A stretch of 54,068 bases of DNA from an uncultured Aureispira sp. (GTDB taxonomy: Bacteria; Bacteroidota; Bacteroidia; Chitinophagales; Saprospiraceae). Shown here in pieces: positions 45,923-52,811 of this stretch. A model generated the notes under the pieces. It did no database searches. It was given only the letters and a program-made list of their open reading frames with translations, and was not told the DNA's origin. The translations under genes were made by a program, and so were the position numbers. The stretch is taken from NCBI GenBank assembly GCA_905480485.1, contig CAJQQM010000005.1, positions 1 to 54,068 on the forward strand. Direction: 5' to 3'. Position 1 is the stretch's first letter, and each line of letters begins with the position of its first letter.

Positions 45923-47101
45923 ATGATTAAAACTGCTTTTCTTTTGCTCTCACTACTTCTGTATTCTACTTTGCGTATAGAAGCTCAAGCAGAAGTAATT
46001 TACCTAGAAAACCCTTCGTTCGAAGATGTCGCTCGTGCCGGCAAAACACCCGCCTCTTGGGCCGATTGTGGGCACAGTCAGGAATCTCCACCCGACGTTC
46101 AGCCCTATGGGGGCTTTAACGTGGTACGTCCTGCTAAGGATGGTCGCACCTATGTAGGTATGGTCACTCGAGACAACAAAACATGGGAGGCACTTGCACA
46201 AAGACTCAGCAAACCGCTACAGAAAGACGCTTGTTACAAATTTTCACTATTTGCCTGCAAATCATCGGTATACATTAGTCCAACCAAAAAGAACCAAAGC
46301 CAACCTACTAATTTTAGTAAAGGAATAATCTTACGTATTTGGGGCGGTAATCATTATTGTGATCGCGCTGAATTACTTGATGAAATTAAAACGCCTGTCG
46401 AACATATAGATTGGCAAAATTACGAATTTGAATTAAAACCCAAAAAGGGTGACTTCAATTTTATATGTATTGAAGCCTACTACAAAACCCCAACATTCAA
46501 CTTTTATAATGGTAATATATTAATAGATAAAGCCTCTGAAATATATTCTTGCGATATACCAACCGATGAACTAGTTGAACAAGACCCCGTAGTTGTAAAA
46601 GAACCTGTTGTCGCTGCGGGAGAACAAAAAGATACCCTTGAAAAAAGACCTAACACGGTAAAACCACTGCCTAATACATCGACCCAAAACCTAACAATAC
46701 AAGACAAAGGAAATTTTGACCCATCCACCATAAAAATAAAAGACCTAGCAATTGGAGATAAGTTCCGTTTAGAAAATCTGTACTTTAGTGCCGATTCATC
46801 ATCTATCAATCGAAACGGCGAAAAAGTATTGTTGGGCTTGTATCGTTTTCTAAAAACCAATTCAAATTTAGCCCTTGAAATTGGAGGTCATACGAATGGA
46901 TTACCTCCAGATGAATTTTGTGACCGTCTGTCTAGTGCTCGAGCCAAGAGTGTCGTGCGGTATCTTAATCAACTTGGAATAAATATTAACCGTATGTCTT
47001 TTAGAGGATATGGCAAACGAAAGCCTATCGGCGATAATAAAACCAAAGAAGGCCAACGTCGCAATCAACGAGTAGAATTTATCGTAACTGATTTGGAATA
47101 A
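45923..47101 (+). CDS. OmpA-family protein with N-terminal unnamed beta-rich domain
   Basis: A 392-residue envelope protein. After a signal peptide (MIKTAFLLLSLLLYSTLRIEAQA), residues ~25-210 are a homologue of the secreted protein at 12747 (shared NPSFED, TYVGMVTRDNKTWE, LRIWGGNHYC, FYNGNILID). A Pro/Val-rich linker follows (~215-265). The last ~110 residues form an OmpA peptidoglycan-binding domain: YFSADSSSINRNG, LEIGGHTNG, then CDRLSSARAKSVVRYL, FRGYGKRKPIGDN and NQRVEFIV. It would anchor the N-terminal domain to the wall on the periplasmic side. Transcribed from its own promoter, it ends at a shared terminator. Confidence 0.9.
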   Translation: MIKTAFLLLSLLLYSTLRIEAQAEVIYLENPSFEDVARAGKTPASWADCGHSQESPPDVQPYGGFNVVRPAKDGRTYVGMVTRDNKTWEALAQRLSKPLQKDACYKFSLFACKSSVYISPTKKNQSQPTNFSKGIILRIWGGNHYCDRAELLDEIKTPVEHIDWQNYEFELKPKKGDFNFICIEAYYKTPTFNFYNGNILIDKASEIYSCDIPTDELVEQDPVVVKEPVVAAGEQKDTLEKRPNTVKPLPNTSTQNLTIQDKGNFDPSTIKIKDLAIGDKFRLENLYFSADSSSINRNGEKVLLGLYRFLKTNSNLALEIGGHTNGLPPDEFCDRLSSARAKSVVRYLNQLGININRMSFRGYGKRKPIGDNKTKEGQRRNQRVEFIVTDLE

Positions 47102-47134
47102 AAAAAGCCCGCATCAAAATGCGGGCTTTTTTTT
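47101..47134 (+). terminator. Bidirectional terminator between OmpA-family gene and giant ATPase gene
   Basis: The stem AAAAGCCCGCAT / ATGCGGGCTTTT with loop CAAA is flanked by A and T runs on both sides. It overlaps the last base of one stop codon and borders the stop of the other, so it ends both converging transcripts. Confidence 0.92.
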
Positions 47135-50100
47135 AATTCTTTTGTGTTTTATCAATTGACTTTTTTTCGACAATCATTTTGGCCGATTTGGCATATTGCA
47201 TCAACTCTTCCAACATTTCAGCTGGTAATTCAGCAATATCAAATGCCAATTTCAATTTACCTTTGGCATTGCGATCTTTAAAAATTTTGATATCGTCAAT
47301 AGTAGGATTATCAATAGCCTCTTCATTATCACCCAACTTCTCTTCAACAATTACGGTTTCTATTACTTTTTCAATAACCTTATGACCTCCAGTTTGCTCT
47401 TTATTTTCATTTTTGGAGCGCAAAAGCCCCAATAAATGAGCCTCTGTCAAAGCGTTGTATTTGGTAATGGCAAATAAATCTTCTTCGATGTTTTTAGAAT
47501 TACTATTCACAAAGGCGATTTTGTCGCAGAGCACTGCATTTCCTTCGACATAAGACTTGACAACCATATCTAAGAAATGGATTTGATAGGGCATTTTACC
47601 CTCAAACAATAAAATCGAGTATTCCGATTGCGCTCGCCATTTCATGTAGTGGTCGGCCCCCCATTCCTGACTGTTTTCCTCGAGTCGTTCAACATCTAGT
47701 TTGTTCTCAACTTTGGTTGTTTTTTGGTCAACACCTTTAATATCTAAGTTGGAACAAGATCGATTATTTTGTTGGGCACAGTTCAACAAATCCTCTACCG
47801 TTATATTATATTTTTCGTAAAGCTGACGCTGTTGCTTGCTATCAAAATAATACAATTCTTTGTCGGCATGATTTTCAACTTTGTATTCAAAAGTAGGTTC
47901 TTGCGGAACACCTGCTGTCTTGACGATGTATGGTAAAGGGGTGTTTTGCGTTAACTTAGGGAGCGTATTGTACAATTTACGCAACCAAAACAGACGTTCA
48001 TCTTCTGAAGTAAAAACGGTTGCTTCTGACTGTAACCACAGAACCGTATTGTGTAAATAATCTTGTTCGTGATTTCTCAAGTCATTCAATTGTTTTTGAG
48101 AGACCGCTGCCCCCGTATTGCTATGAAAGTATTTGCGGACATTCACTAATGTTGAACGCTCGGTGTTTACGCCTACAGCATGCAACAAAGACAGTTTACC
48201 TTTCGGAATTAAGATAACCTTAGAAGTCATTTCGATAGCTGCTACATCCTCTAAAGCATCTGTTTCGTTAGAATCCTCTATTTGGTTTTCATCGTTGGCA
48301 AGTTCAATTTTTTGTTGTTGTTCCACTACCCTCTCTTCTACAATTTCTTGCGCGTCTCCAACCCATTGCATTAACCAAGCGGGGAAACGTTCTTTTACCA
48401 AAGCGAATTTTTCGGGATAAACCAATTGATTGGGAATTAATCCTCCTATACTACCATCAGCATCCGTCTTAAGTTCGAGTTGCAAAGGACGATCAAAATC
48501 ATTCATTTCTGACCACTTAGCGTATAAAAAATTAAGAATTTTGGATTGTAACTGTTCGGGGTTTTCTTCCTCCTTGAGCGCCCTAACCGGAGCACAATAA
48601 AAGATATTTTTATCGATTAATGGTTCTAAAACGAGCTTTTGAGCACCAAAAGTAAAATTGCCTCCTTTTTCCCTCATCTTTAAAAGCTCATCGATAGCAA
48701 CATACGATTGACGATTCAATATGGCAGACTGATCAATAAAACTATTGTTGTTGAGATGAAAACAATCGAAAGAAGCCATTTCAATGGGTTCATTCGCTTG
48801 TGTTCGAACCATAAACTGTTTGATTAGTTTTGAATTATCAGCATCTTTGGCATACAACAAAGCAAATGATAGCTGATAGGCATTCTCAAGAACCTTATGA
48901 TCTTTCTTTAGTTCTTCAAAAATTTCACGAATATGTTTTTCTTCTCCTTCAAAGCAGCGCCGTTGCAAAACAGTAGGTGCTTCATAATCAATAAATTGAT
49001 CGGCTATATTGCGTAATAAGCCTTGAATATCTTTAAAACGAGGTAGGATTTCCGCCAAGAGTAAATTGTATTTACCAAAGCGTTCCACGGCAAATGTAAC
49101 ATTCGAATCAAACCCAATATCGGTCAATTTATGCAATTCTCCTGCTAAATTTTCGATGTAAATTTTAGAACGAACTTTGGCATGATCGGCTTCTTTGTTG
49201 CGAAAAATTTGTAAGGTTTGATGTTCAAAAGAATCTGCATTGTAGGTTTGGCCCTCTTTTAAAACAATCTTGTCTATTTTGCTAAAGACTTGTTCCTGAA
49301 CATCGGCATTGCCTGACTCTACAATTAATGCAGAAAGCAGTTCAGGAGACACCTCTTTGGATTTAGAGATTGCATTAAACAGCTGCGAACCGCGTAGAAG
49401 ACCTTTGTTTCGATAATCCGTATGGTACAATTTAGCAGGTAATAATTTGTAGGTTTCTCCAAATAGGGCATTGATTTTTTCAGCAAGGGCCTGTTGTCCT
49501 TTTTCTACCGCATAAGGTATATTTCTGGCCCGTTTGCCCACTTCACATTCCCTTGGGTTTTCTACACTTTCGATGATGTACAAAAAAGTAAAAAGATCTT
49601 CTTTGGTACGTTCGAAGAAATGCACCAAGCTTGTCGCTTCACTTTTTTCTAAAATTACAAGCTCGTTGGCCATAGATTTAGCTAAAATGCCGTTGCGAGT
49701 CTTGAGGACATTTTCTGTTAAAAATTCGAGTATATCTACATGTGGGGCATACAAATCAGTAAGGCTATTGATTGCCGTTTTCAGCGCTCCATATTTGTCG
49801 GAATGCACCATTTCATCGTGAAAAAACACTTGATTTGCTGCCACAAAACCTACATTATTGTCAACAAAAATATAATCATTGCCTGTCAAAGGTTTTGGTG
49901 CTTTAGCCAATGAGGCATATTTCATCACTCCCTGATAAAAAGATTGTATGTTGGAGGCCACCGAACTGTGGGCAGTTATTGTCGCCCATTCGGTGGATAA
50001 AATATTATTGTAAATATCGGTTTCTTTGGCCAAGTAGTTTTGCAAGGTTAAACTATCTTCGTGTACATCAATCCTAAAATCGTCTAACCAAGCTTCTACC

Positions 50101-52811
50101 GACTTATTGGAGGCTATTAATTTAGACAATACCATTCGTTGGCCATTTTGGTTACAAAAGAGTTCGACACGCGCTAATTCTTTGGTGGGTAAAACAGCTG
50201 CTAAAAGAATAAAAAATGCCTTCTTTTCATCCGGACCTAAATCAGCGGTCTTGCAATGCTCAATTAGATCGGCAATACCCATCTTCCAATCTTTGGTTGT
50301 GGTCGTAGGAAGGGTACGATAAGGGTCTGCAGCCAAATAGTGTACAATACTAGGGTGCGGCAAAGCCAATCCAAGCACCTTTTCTACTGCCGTTCTTAAG
50401 TCTTGGTAGTCTACTTTTATTTTTTCTAGACAGCGGTGATAAAAAACAGCAGCAGGTGTACAAAAGCCTGTAGAAGCGTCTGTATATATGTAATTGGCTT
50501 CATCTAGCTTGGGTTGCCCTGATTTAAGTTTAAAATAAGCCGTTACACTTTTGTAAAACTCTACGAGTTCTTCTTCATTTTCACCGTCAATTCCACCTAC
50601 TAATTCCGACCAAAACGGAACGATGATATGGCTGTAGGTTTCCCATTTATTGCGTTTTGATATATATTGTTGAGCCAATTCTTCCGAATCTTCCTCTTTG
50701 GCTATTTTAAAATTTTCTAGCCAACGTTCTACATTTGCATCAGCCGGTAATAATCCGTTGAGTGGAGCAGCCAACCCTTGTTTGTTGTTGAATAAGGCAA
50801 CACTGCGCAACTCGTCTTTTTTGACTCCATCCAAACCCTTCAAAAAGGTATATAAGCTGTGTTTTTGGGCAACAGTTAAGGTTGCGGACTGCGTTCGTGT
50901 TTCAATTTTTTTGAACAGTGCATAATCATCCGTCAAGTAATCTAACTGAGATTCAATTTGCTGTAGAATAACCGAATAGTCTAAAATATTAAATTCAAGG
51001 ACCGAAAAACCGAGACCTTTGATTGAATCTCTAATAGGCAACATGCGTTCGCTCATCAGAAAGATATCTGCCTGAGCTTGTAAGTCATTTATGGCATAAA
51101 AATGTGCATCCCCTTTAGTCGACGTAAATTTGAAACACTTGATATCTGCAAACTTTTCTAAAAATGCCTCATCAAATTCTACGCGTTTGAGTTCGGTTAC
51201 AAATATATTGTAATCATTCTCCGATAAATTAGAAATAAAATTGTTGAGAAGGCTTAGATTAGCTTCTATAATCAACTCTTTTATGCCCCATCTTTTCAAA
51301 CCCAATTTGGCATTATTAGCTGCTGAACGTAAAATATCGTCTTCTTTTTCAACATCCGTCCAGTACAACCATTCTCTACCTATACCTAAGCTCATTGGTT
51401 CTATGGGTAAGGCTGTACCTTTTGCAATAATCAAATCCTTTAGATAAAAATTGCCTTTATTGGTAGGGATATTCATCTGAATATACTCTAAAAGTGGTTC
51501 ATAAAGGTATTTATTGATAAGTTCTGCATCGTACTCAGTAGACCGGTTACTCATCAACAAGGCCTGATAAATATGACAGTAGGTCTCGAAATCTTCTTGT
51601 TTGTATTTGTTTAGGTTGCGCTTGAGTGAACGGGCAATGTATTTGAAAGTTTCGATATTGGCTTCTCCCTGATCGTCCAAACGCGTACGGTCTGTGATCT
51701 TTGCAAAAGAAGAAGAATGGATAAAATAAGCCATACCGTGTCGTTCGTTGCGCATCGGAAAAAACTGGTATAAACTCGGGGCATCTTTCAAGGCTTGCAT
51801 TTGCGTCAAAGAAGCTGGAAAGCCAAGCGAAATCTCAATTGGACAGCCTGGAAACTCAGGATCAATATTTTTGAAATCTTCTGTACCTGGTAAAATTGAA
51901 TAGCGTTCAAAACGCGTTTCGAATTTTTCAATAATTTCGTCTTGTAGGGCTACTTTTTCTAGGGTTTTGAGGTTATTCATCGCATATCCAATACCCGACT
52001 TGATATTGAGTAGCGACTCTTGCAATTTTTCATGCTTTTTGGGACCAAACCGCAAGAAAAATAATGACCCTTGTTGCAGGGAGAAGTTCTCGAGAAGGTG
52101 TTTGTTTTTGTTTAAAAAAAGTACCAATTCCGATAAATCTTCTTGGTTGAATAATACATCGTCTTGGTATTCTAAATTTTTGATAGTTTCTTCTGGACTT
52201 GTCGGAAAGCAAGCGAGGATAATTTTGAGTAACCAAGGGGCCGTTTCTCCCGAAATCTTATTTTCTAAGGCCATTTTACCCCCTTTGTAGCTTAGTAACT
52301 CCTCAAACTGTTTGTTGTTGTGCCAGCTAAAAAGTAAAGGACCTGCCATATCACGCAATAATTCTTCGGCACCATCTGATTTGCCCATGAGACGATAGGC
52401 CAATTTAAAACCAATACCATAACGCCCGATTTTACCACAATTTTCAACTTTTGTTTTATCAGCTTTCGTCCCTTGAAAAGAATTGAGTAAAGCTTTTAAG
52501 TCTTTTTCTGAAAAAGCGCGCCCATTGTTGAGGACCATAAAGAAATCATCATCATAGATAACGGCGCATTCCGTTGATTGACTATCGGCTGCATTTTGCA
52601 AAAACTCGTAAATAGCTTGTTCGTCTTGTGCATTTTGTAGTTTAGGGGTTAAATCGGCTTTGATATTGTTGACAATACCATTAACCATTTTGTAGAAACC
52701 ACTGTTTTCTCCGTGTGCAGAACCAATGAAATTCTCGTCCCAATTAGGCATGTCATAACCCTGTGCGTTGCGCCAGTTGCTGCGGAATTGCTGTATATTT
52801 TTGATACGCAT
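47133..52811 (-). CDS. Giant sacsin-like GHKL (HSP90-type) ATPase
   Basis: A 1892-residue cytoplasmic protein. Residues ~40-200 form a GHKL ATPase domain of the HSP90/sacsin kind: the N-box EFLQNAADSQ (Glu69, Asn73, Asp76), then the GRYGIGFKLAY loop (residues 129-139) and NGRAFSEKDLKALL before it. The remainder is a long helical and mixed region of unknown folds. It has an internal duplication (residues ~667-826 and ~878-1031). Near 1740-1830 a conserved-looking segment with SEYSILLFEGKMPYQIHFLD resembles the C-terminal part of other sacsin-N-like proteins. No nuclease or helicase motif was found. GHKL proteins of this size are rare and some relatives sit in defence loci; no partner is seen here, so the function is open. 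It has its own promoter and no operon neighbour. Confidence 0.82.
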   Translation of the reverse strand: MRIKNIQQFRSNWRNAQGYDMPNWDENFIGSAHGENSGFYKMVNGIVNNIKADLTPKLQNAQDEQAIYEFLQNAADSQSTECAVIYDDDFFMVLNNGRAFSEKDLKALLNSFQGTKADKTKVENCGKIGRYGIGFKLAYRLMGKSDGAEELLRDMAGPLLFSWHNNKQFEELLSYKGGKMALENKISGETAPWLLKIILACFPTSPEETIKNLEYQDDVLFNQEDLSELVLFLNKNKHLLENFSLQQGSLFFLRFGPKKHEKLQESLLNIKSGIGYAMNNLKTLEKVALQDEIIEKFETRFERYSILPGTEDFKNIDPEFPGCPIEISLGFPASLTQMQALKDAPSLYQFFPMRNERHGMAYFIHSSSFAKITDRTRLDDQGEANIETFKYIARSLKRNLNKYKQEDFETYCHIYQALLMSNRSTEYDAELINKYLYEPLLEYIQMNIPTNKGNFYLKDLIIAKGTALPIEPMSLGIGREWLYWTDVEKEDDILRSAANNAKLGLKRWGIKELIIEANLSLLNNFISNLSENDYNIFVTELKRVEFDEAFLEKFADIKCFKFTSTKGDAHFYAINDLQAQADIFLMSERMLPIRDSIKGLGFSVLEFNILDYSVILQQIESQLDYLTDDYALFKKIETRTQSATLTVAQKHSLYTFLKGLDGVKKDELRSVALFNNKQGLAAPLNGLLPADANVERWLENFKIAKEEDSEELAQQYISKRNKWETYSHIIVPFWSELVGGIDGENEEELVEFYKSVTAYFKLKSGQPKLDEANYIYTDASTGFCTPAAVFYHRCLEKIKVDYQDLRTAVEKVLGLALPHPSIVHYLAADPYRTLPTTTTKDWKMGIADLIEHCKTADLGPDEKKAFFILLAAVLPTKELARVELFCNQNGQRMVLSKLIASNKSVEAWLDDFRIDVHEDSLTLQNYLAKETDIYNNILSTEWATITAHSSVASNIQSFYQGVMKYASLAKAPKPLTGNDYIFVDNNVGFVAANQVFFHDEMVHSDKYGALKTAINSLTDLYAPHVDILEFLTENVLKTRNGILAKSMANELVILEKSEATSLVHFFERTKEDLFTFLYIIESVENPRECEVGKRARNIPYAVEKGQQALAEKINALFGETYKLLPAKLYHTDYRNKGLLRGSQLFNAISKSKEVSPELLSALIVESGNADVQEQVFSKIDKIVLKEGQTYNADSFEHQTLQIFRNKEADHAKVRSKIYIENLAGELHKLTDIGFDSNVTFAVERFGKYNLLLAEILPRFKDIQGLLRNIADQFIDYEAPTVLQRRCFEGEEKHIREIFEELKKDHKVLENAYQLSFALLYAKDADNSKLIKQFMVRTQANEPIEMASFDCFHLNNNSFIDQSAILNRQSYVAIDELLKMREKGGNFTFGAQKLVLEPLIDKNIFYCAPVRALKEEENPEQLQSKILNFLYAKWSEMNDFDRPLQLELKTDADGSIGGLIPNQLVYPEKFALVKERFPAWLMQWVGDAQEIVEERVVEQQQKIELANDENQIEDSNETDALEDVAAIEMTSKVILIPKGKLSLLHAVGVNTERSTLVNVRKYFHSNTGAAVSQKQLNDLRNHEQDYLHNTVLWLQSEATVFTSEDERLFWLRKLYNTLPKLTQNTPLPYIVKTAGVPQEPTFEYKVENHADKELYYFDSKQQRQLYEKYNITVEDLLNCAQQNNRSCSNLDIKGVDQKTTKVENKLDVERLEENSQEWGADHYMKWRAQSEYSILLFEGKMPYQIHFLDMVVKSYVEGNAVLCDKIAFVNSNSKNIEEDLFAITKYNALTEAHLLGLLRSKNENKEQTGGHKVIEKVIETVIVEEKLGDNEEAIDNPTIDDIKIFKDRNAKGKLKLAFDIAELPAEMLEELMQYAKSAKMIVEKKSIDKTQKN
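49719..50813 (-). repeat. Internal tandem duplication in the giant ATPase
   Basis: Two ~155-160-residue modules inside the protein align along their length. Copy A (residues ~667-826) and copy B (~878-1031) share EL..V.LF.N..G, VE.WL..F.I...EDS..L...Y..K, FY..V..Y..L, YI..D...GF.....VF.H and PH..I...L. The DNA has diverged, so the duplication is old. Confidence 0.8.

Follow-up and report, generated by a model that had tools for sequence, protein, structure and literature searches.

The window analysed here is the whole stretch of 54,068 nucleotides from contig CAJQQM010000005.1 of an uncultured Aureispira sp. (assembly GCA_905480485.1). Its longest listed open reading frame (ORF) encodes a protein of 1892 amino acids (aa) assigned to the family of TmtA, a protein that we attribute to the Tiamat defence system, reportedly first described by Millman et al. 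in 2022. The frame is uninterrupted and reads on the minus strand from an ATG start to a stop codon at 47133-47135, in agreement with an original prediction, made from the sequence alone, of a solitary sacsin-like GHKL ATPase at 47133-52811, for which no strand had been given. Gene and protein are divided as follows, with conservation counted in an alignment of 26 family members (rows), 14 of them effector-less and 12 others:

47133-52811, minus strand: TmtA-family gene, 1892 aa (ORF call and PADLOC TmtA match)
52302-52811, minus strand: GHKL (Bergerat) ATPase domain, residues 1-170, border estimated (Pfam, NCBIfam)
52584-52607, minus strand: motif I, E69 F L Q N73 A A D76 (E69, N73 and D76 in 26/26 rows)
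52407-52427, minus strand: motif III, G129 R Y G132 I G134 F135 (G129 and G134 in 26/26 rows, G132 in 25/26, F135 in 22/26)
50952-52301, minus strand: region assigned as Hsp90-middle-like, residues 171-620, borders estimated, with the invariant R375
50262-50906, minus strand: repeat module copy 1, residues 636-850 (profile self-comparison)
49641-50261, minus strand: repeat module copy 2, residues 851-1057 (row alignment)
48177-48314, minus strand: variable acidic linker, residues about 1500-1545 (low model confidence there)
47136-47411, minus strand: short tail, residues 1801-1892, where relatives bear further domains

With 1180.4 bits against PADLOC model PDLC03970 (TmtA), reached in two stretches of which the best covers residues 1-837, and with matches to two further TmtA models (three in all), the window protein is placed by its sequence in the Tiamat family, as an apparently effector-less member. 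Because of this strong match (1180 bits), the proposal in the original prediction that the gene may represent an undescribed system is unsupported. Its statement that nuclease, helicase and methylase parts are lacking was borne out, as none was found in the protein by Pfam, NCBIfam and PADLOC up to E 1; a Pfam match to RHH_5 lies at chance level (E 0.68).

The most conserved part of the protein is formed by residues 1-170, which are 72-97% identical to the 13 other aligned effector-less rows. This domain scores 54.9 bits with NCBIfam NF047352, a sacsin ATP-binding-like domain (cut-off 50), 28.3 with Pfam HATPase_c_3 (cut-off 25) and 29.6 with Pfam SACS, below the cut-off of 32.8 for that model. 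The two motifs on which the assignment had originally been based, EFLQNAADSQ and GRYGIGFKLAY, are located at residues 69-78 and 129-139, respectively. Nine residues (E69, N73, D76, G97, F100, K116, G129, G134 and R375) are invariant across the 26 rows, N96 is Asn in 25 rows and Asp in one, and F135 is replaced by Ser in four rows that are linked to ZorB-like genes (see below). Loss of the ATP site from most homologues, named beforehand as an argument against the prediction, was therefore not seen in the homologues examined. By analogy with Hsp90 and sacsin, E69, N73 and D76 would represent the catalytic Glu, Asn and Asp. In sacsin, Glu116, Asn120, Asp123, Asn160, Phe164 and Lys180 have been paired with Glu33, Asn37, Asp40, Asp79, Met84 and Gly100 of Hsp90, and Arg474 has been proposed to be catalytic, with ATP binding by sacsin itself described as debated (PMC9880540). 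In our own pairing, the spacing of the window motifs fits sacsin Glu116, Asn120, Asp123, Phe164, Lys180, Gly188, Gly193 and Arg474 (PMC9880540). The place of Hsp90 Asp79 is occupied by an Asn (N96), as with sacsin Asn160, and R375 is a putative counterpart of Arg474. The complete HSP90/sacsin-type ATP site claimed originally is thus upheld for the motifs and the NF047352 score, with the reservation that the Hsp90 Asp79 place holds Asn.

Downstream of the middle region, a module of about 210 aa is tandemly repeated: in the profile self-comparison, residues 636-849 align with residues 849-1054 at E ~1e-31. Copy 1 is filled in 14/14 effector-less rows and in 8/12 of the others, being partial or absent in four, whereas copy 2 has 206-207 of its 207 positions filled in 14/14 effector-less rows and 0-15 in the 12 other rows. 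The acidic linker is variable, and the copy from the third genus of the lineage, g493 (L065:4084-10095), reaches 2003 aa because of an extended Asp/Glu stretch in its linker. At low identity, residues 1058-1800 can be aligned with the part that precedes the effector in other relatives. Past the position of residue 1800, the 12 other relatives continue for 169-699 residues, in comparison to 79-92 counterpart-less residues in Aureispira, g493 and the aligned Saprospira row, and 49-159 in the remaining effector-less rows. The two ranges nearly meet, as the effector-less maximum is 159 residues (L025) and the effector-bearing minimum 169 (L027). Among the Aureispira and g493 copies, tail identity is 56-80%, and invariant residues are spread through the C-terminal region in the 12 rows compared.

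An AlphaFold2 model of residues 1-1060 (mean predicted local distance difference test, pLDDT, 81.5; predicted template modelling score, pTM, 0.54) gave 85 matches in the PDB at E <= 0.001 with Foldseek (best E 1.4e-8), and the 50 listed comprise Hsp90-type chains as well as two MORC3 entries. With template modelling (TM) scores near 0.2 and a pLDDT <50 in the nucleotide loops, the fold family is supported by the model, not a pose. A profile of the same residues gave four sequence matches in the PDB up to E 1, all to sacsin (5v44-5v47; E 4e-8) and restricted to window residues 65-141; a PDB search with the single window sequence gave none. Residues 1045-1892 (848 residues) were modelled with a pLDDT of 73.3.

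Among the wider relatives, given here by locus number, different domains occupy the place of the tail. L108, L110, L026 and L135 carry a helicase-type AAA_11/AAA_12 at the C-terminus (Pfam). NOV_C (DUF3883), which has been called a novel restriction endonuclease domain (PMC3710099), exceeds the cut-off in four proteins (L027, L028, L130 and L134) and narrowly misses it in L132, with L130 also narrowly missing it when scanned as a single protein; L133 is NOV_C-like by eye only and has no Pfam match, and L129 continues for about 196 extra residues without any match. In L109:4195-11351 the TmtA homologue ends in DarT (Pfam E 4.9e-20) and adjoins a gene that encodes a macro domain of the DarG type (PADLOC E 2.8e-49), apparently a toxin-antitoxin pair built into the family. 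At four loci (L130:6233-12895, L132:7283-14444, L134:8291-15476 and L028:5535-12233) the TmtA-NOV_C gene lies directly behind a two-gene pair that by eye is MotA/ZorA-like in its first and MotB/ZorB-like in its second member; ZorB models match 4/98 scanned neighbours (best E 2.6e-36), presumably the second genes of these pairs. Possibly, pair and TmtA-NOV_C gene constitute a Zorya-like three-gene system, an arrangement that is absent from the list of Zorya types I-III in one passage of a Zorya paper. At L129:5837-13161 in genome G686, the TmtA gene is followed with a one-base overlap by a gene whose product is a helicase-type ATPase ending in a PIN_4 domain, a possible case of an effector supplied by a second gene. 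Both family forms can occur in one genome, since Aureispira G008 carries a second, NOV_C-bearing TmtA copy (L027:1047-9879) near OloA/OloB of Olokun. The NOV_C matches of G008 lie in L027 and on contig C45, not at the orthologue of the window gene. In the wider family, a GHKL sensor or clamp appears to be combined with exchangeable effectors.

For the tail, Pfam recognised no effector in the window protein (RHH_5 being at chance level) or in the last 599 residues of L131 from Saprospira. NOV_C was found nowhere in genomes G000, G674 and G099 or in those of L064 and L066. The tails of L025, L064 and L066, three effector-less relatives from outside the lineage, are 159, 131 and 49 residues long and hence shorter than helicase or DarT domains. 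In a tree of the N-terminal part, the 18 effector-less rows among 30 form one clade that requires a single change (support 99/99, 98% of bootstrap trees), and the four ZorB-linked rows form one group. Several effector-bearing branches are long, so that the branching order of those rows is unsure; the domain labels on the tree predate the genome-wide NOV_C searches, with L133 labelled NOV_C by eye.

A full-length copy occurs in 9/9 Aureispira genomes (the window genome and the eight others searched, 59-85% identical to the window protein) and a copy in 6/6 Saprospira genomes, one of them partial in a genome that is 63% complete. In g493 it is present in the one genome seen. The gene is therefore fixed in the two genera as sampled. 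Aureispira are predators. For Saprospira, predation is among the keywords of PMC10508125. A C-terminal profile gave 12 matches in 298 genomes of the family Saprospiraceae, confined to 3/112 genera, all of the Saprospira/Aureispira lineage (G001, G005 and G007 are outside these 12, their sampling among the 298 being uncertain). By contrast, the protein family is patchy around the lineage, with 9/298 genomes of the order at E <= 1e-20, three of them Aureispira or Saprospira including the window genome, and 6/395 genomes of the class at the same threshold, again including the window genome; in the phylum, 43/395 genomes match at E <= 1e-3, mostly weakly.

The full-length TmtA tree and the rpoB tree give the same order within Aureispira, differing in the weakly supported place of G1058 (82/68) and among near-identical Saprospira rows; the N-terminal tree places G1058 with Aureispira, like rpoB, and orders G000, G005 and G006 otherwise. 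A mobile element or recent arrival was rejected for the lineage: the TmtA tree follows rpoB within Aureispira, no match was obtained in 72,556 plasmid records, one of 50,697 phage records matched over 4% of the query, and of 58 viral-contig stretches that matched a pattern none was confirmed. Synonymous rates (dS), considered as a test for recent transfer, were saturated in most pairs. Comparison of the two main Aureispira groups gives identities of 77-81% for TmtA, 65-71% for SMC and about 92% for rpoB. The nonsynonymous rate (dN) of TmtA is lower than that of SMC in 19/28 genome pairs that have both genes (G005, which has no whole SMC, was left out), i.e. in 19/21 pairs without G002 and 0/7 with it, so that TmtA is more constrained than SMC in the main group and less against the outlier G002. 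It is clearly less constrained than rpoB or parE.

The end of the gene is shared with its convergent neighbour:

47100-47133: bidirectional intrinsic terminator, 15-pair stem plus A and T tracts, common to both genes
45923-47101: OmpA-domain gene, convergent with the TmtA gene

One terminator was found in 46900-47400, compared with 0.5 in shuffles, and the strong bidirectional terminator predicted originally was thereby recovered. The prediction of a promoter of its own is unsupported: the nearest TANNTTTG box, which we take to be a Bacteroidota promoter motif, lies 344 base pairs (bp) upstream, and in 14 relatives such boxes are scattered or absent within 400 bp, no sigma-70 scan having been made upstream. 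As had been noted, the gene is solitary, with no evident partner in the window, and no fixed-operon partner was found among the orthologue loci. The widest recurring neighbour is a secreted-type protein in 7/9 Aureispira genomes (Por_Secre_tail in the one copy scanned), separated by one intervening gene in G003 and missing in G002; the window contig ends before its place. Other orthologue neighbours recur in subsets of the genomes. In Saprospira, the divergent neighbour in the five loci read is a coproporphyrinogen oxidase gene (by eye, with Pfam on one).

The gene surroundings were compared in two sets of neighbours. Sixty-four neighbours from eight orthologue loci (seven from Aureispira and one from g493; the set excluded L020, which nearly duplicates L018, and many short or cut ORFs) match four PADLOC models, namely mad2 (two members, best E 2.3e-21), two Csa3 models (two members each) and ZorB/MotB (one member). 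From 15 other loci (11 effector-bearing ones, L129, and the effector-less L025, L064 and L066 from outside the lineage), 98 neighbours match 503 models. Per-protein scans showed Qat, BrxL and AbiEii genes adjoining L108, and PglX and PglZ flank L110 on either side; the neighbours of L066 gave only a PIN gene. Within the window, 34 other ORFs match 29 PADLOC models, of which the 25 listed have one member each, and many of these matches are SMC- or ATPase-like, presumably from the SMC gene. One of the 34 ORFs matches mad3 at E 1.6e-54. A predominance of housekeeping neighbourhoods among homologues had been proposed as evidence against the original prediction; the outcome is divided, with several wider homologues beside defence genes and the Aureispira orthologues amid few PADLOC matches.

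The resemblance to Tiamat thus comprises the strong family match, the GHKL N-terminus and the large single gene. The window protein differs in its lack of a recognised effector (the comparison leaving aside how the Tiamat protein tested in the laboratory is built), its extra repeat module and its core-gene-like inheritance. The defence-island setting usual for Tiamat was not seen at the window gene and the eight orthologue loci, which was not used to exclude membership. In excerpts of three papers the mechanism of Tiamat is termed unknown or poorly understood (PMC10482375, PMC12926258, PMC10740426). A passage on plant-associated metagenomes reports that all Tiamat hits fall on plant sequences (PMC12409356), which we read as the models reaching eukaryotic sacsin-like proteins. 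Sacsin, the sole PDB sequence match, is likewise a long protein with repeats and has an Hsp90-like ATP site in which Asn takes the place of Hsp90 Asp79 and whose Phe164 and Lys180 have counterparts in the window protein. It is described in part of PMC3710099 with three such ATPase modules, DnaJ and HEPN, whereas one ATPase module is recognised in the window protein and neither DnaJ nor HEPN was found there (Pfam, up to E 1). The GHKL fold is shared with Hsp90/HtpG, with whole Hsp90s aligning to the model over about 750-780 columns, but at 9-15% identity and a TM-score of about 0.2; no whole-length HSP90 family match was obtained with Pfam or NCBIfam, which leaves a similarity of fold. In paraMORC3/Shedu (VcSduA), a GHKL ATPase is joined to a nuclease in phage defence, and both ATPase and nuclease mutants of VcSduA lost activity (PMC12137116); the corresponding DUF4263 nuclease was not found in the window protein by Pfam. 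The authors of a MORC study speculated that paraMORC3 GHKL proteins outside restriction-modification neighbourhoods gained a distinct function (PMC2292703). In the literature searched, to which the original Tiamat report did not belong and which was available in part, no description was found of effector swapping in Tiamat or of its fixation in Saprospira/Aureispira.

In the mechanism proposed here, the N-terminal GHKL domain binds ATP and the Hsp90-like middle region supplies the catalytic Arg for its hydrolysis. ATP binding may then close the protein, possibly as a dimer, to clamp a client, which would be held by the duplicated modules of the middle part together with the extended C-terminal region. 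The wider relatives carry a nuclease-like, helicase or ADP-ribosyltransferase domain at the C-terminus of this platform, so that the clamp there is probably a sensor that releases the effector. In the window protein, where a tail of about 90 aa replaces this domain, the clamp should act by binding or remodelling some protein or complex rather than by cleavage. Anti-phage and protein-quality roles, both named in the original prediction, are still the two main rival functions. Tentatively, and at somewhat less than even confidence, we prefer a Tiamat-family protein without recognised effector that has taken over a core ATP-driven role in stress or protein quality from a defence ancestor. A more specific version is rather doubtful, namely that of a domesticated immune ATPase which lost its effector, doubled its client-binding module and now serves as a (near-)essential sacsin-like chaperone of Saprospira/Aureispira.

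Several observations weigh against a core role. L025 lies beside caspase and PDC-M02 genes and L064 beside a methylase and a Res-type gene, so that a missing effector alone does not mean leaving defence; because these two still stand beside defence-type genes, the core role is placed before constitutive immunity with caution. Both neighbour sets were picked by hand, and the 503 and four matches count models rather than proteins, which makes their contrast qualitative. Two mad2 matches among the 64 orthologue neighbours lack a gene assignment. In Aureispira G002 (L021:6138-12962), a gene for a 376-aa PIN_8-domain protein lies directly behind the TmtA orthologue, and the G002 copy has evolved faster than SMC. 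Pfam scans among the effector-less rows covered the whole window protein and the C-terminal part of L131, the other rows being labelled by alignment and tail length, plus NOV_C absence in five genomes searched. Finally, the model of residues 1045-1892 has no fold match at E <= 0.001 in the PDB or BFVD, so that a new effector fold could hide there.

The strongest rival, nearly as likely, is that the protein is still anti-phage and confers constitutive immunity, with the clamp sensing a phage product and either blocking it by binding or signalling to an effector encoded elsewhere. Constitutive immunity would agree with the strong TmtA match, the defence-type genes beside two (L025, L064) of the three effector-less relatives found outside the lineage, the BREX, Qat, Olokun and AbiE genes beside wider relatives, and the PIN-domain gene behind the G002 copy. 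Tiamat has further been counted with the commonest systems in an island hotspot of Pseudomonas (PMC12629846) and described as almost always chromosomal in Actinobacteria (PMC10482375). However, occurrence in 9/9 and 6/6 genomes differs from the patchy distribution around the lineage (9/298 in the order, 6/395 in the class), and there is neither a conserved partner nor a recognised effector. It is improbable that residues 1058-1892 themselves constitute an unrecognised effector with a new catalytic fold, which would make the gene a complete one-gene defence weapon. The invariant residues in 12 rows, the conserved tail (56-80%) and the lack of a fold match leave room for such novelty, yet residues 1058-1800 align with the pre-effector region of relatives, the counterpart-less part amounts to just 79-92 residues and no catalytic motif was recognised. 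A decaying defence-gene remnant without present function, as might be suspected from the lack of a recognised effector, is hardly tenable and largely refuted by conservation, given the open frame in 9/9 Aureispira and 5/6 Saprospira genomes and the conserved ATP site.

Taken together, one GHKL platform combined with at least three kinds of C-terminal domain offers a directly testable sensor-plus-effector model for the family, in which the effector-less, core-gene-like form represents a natural separation of platform from effector. This form also bears on the route from a defence gene to a gene of cell maintenance. If domestication has indeed taken place, it would be a bacterial parallel to eukaryotes, which possibly obtained sacsin-type chaperones from defence systems.

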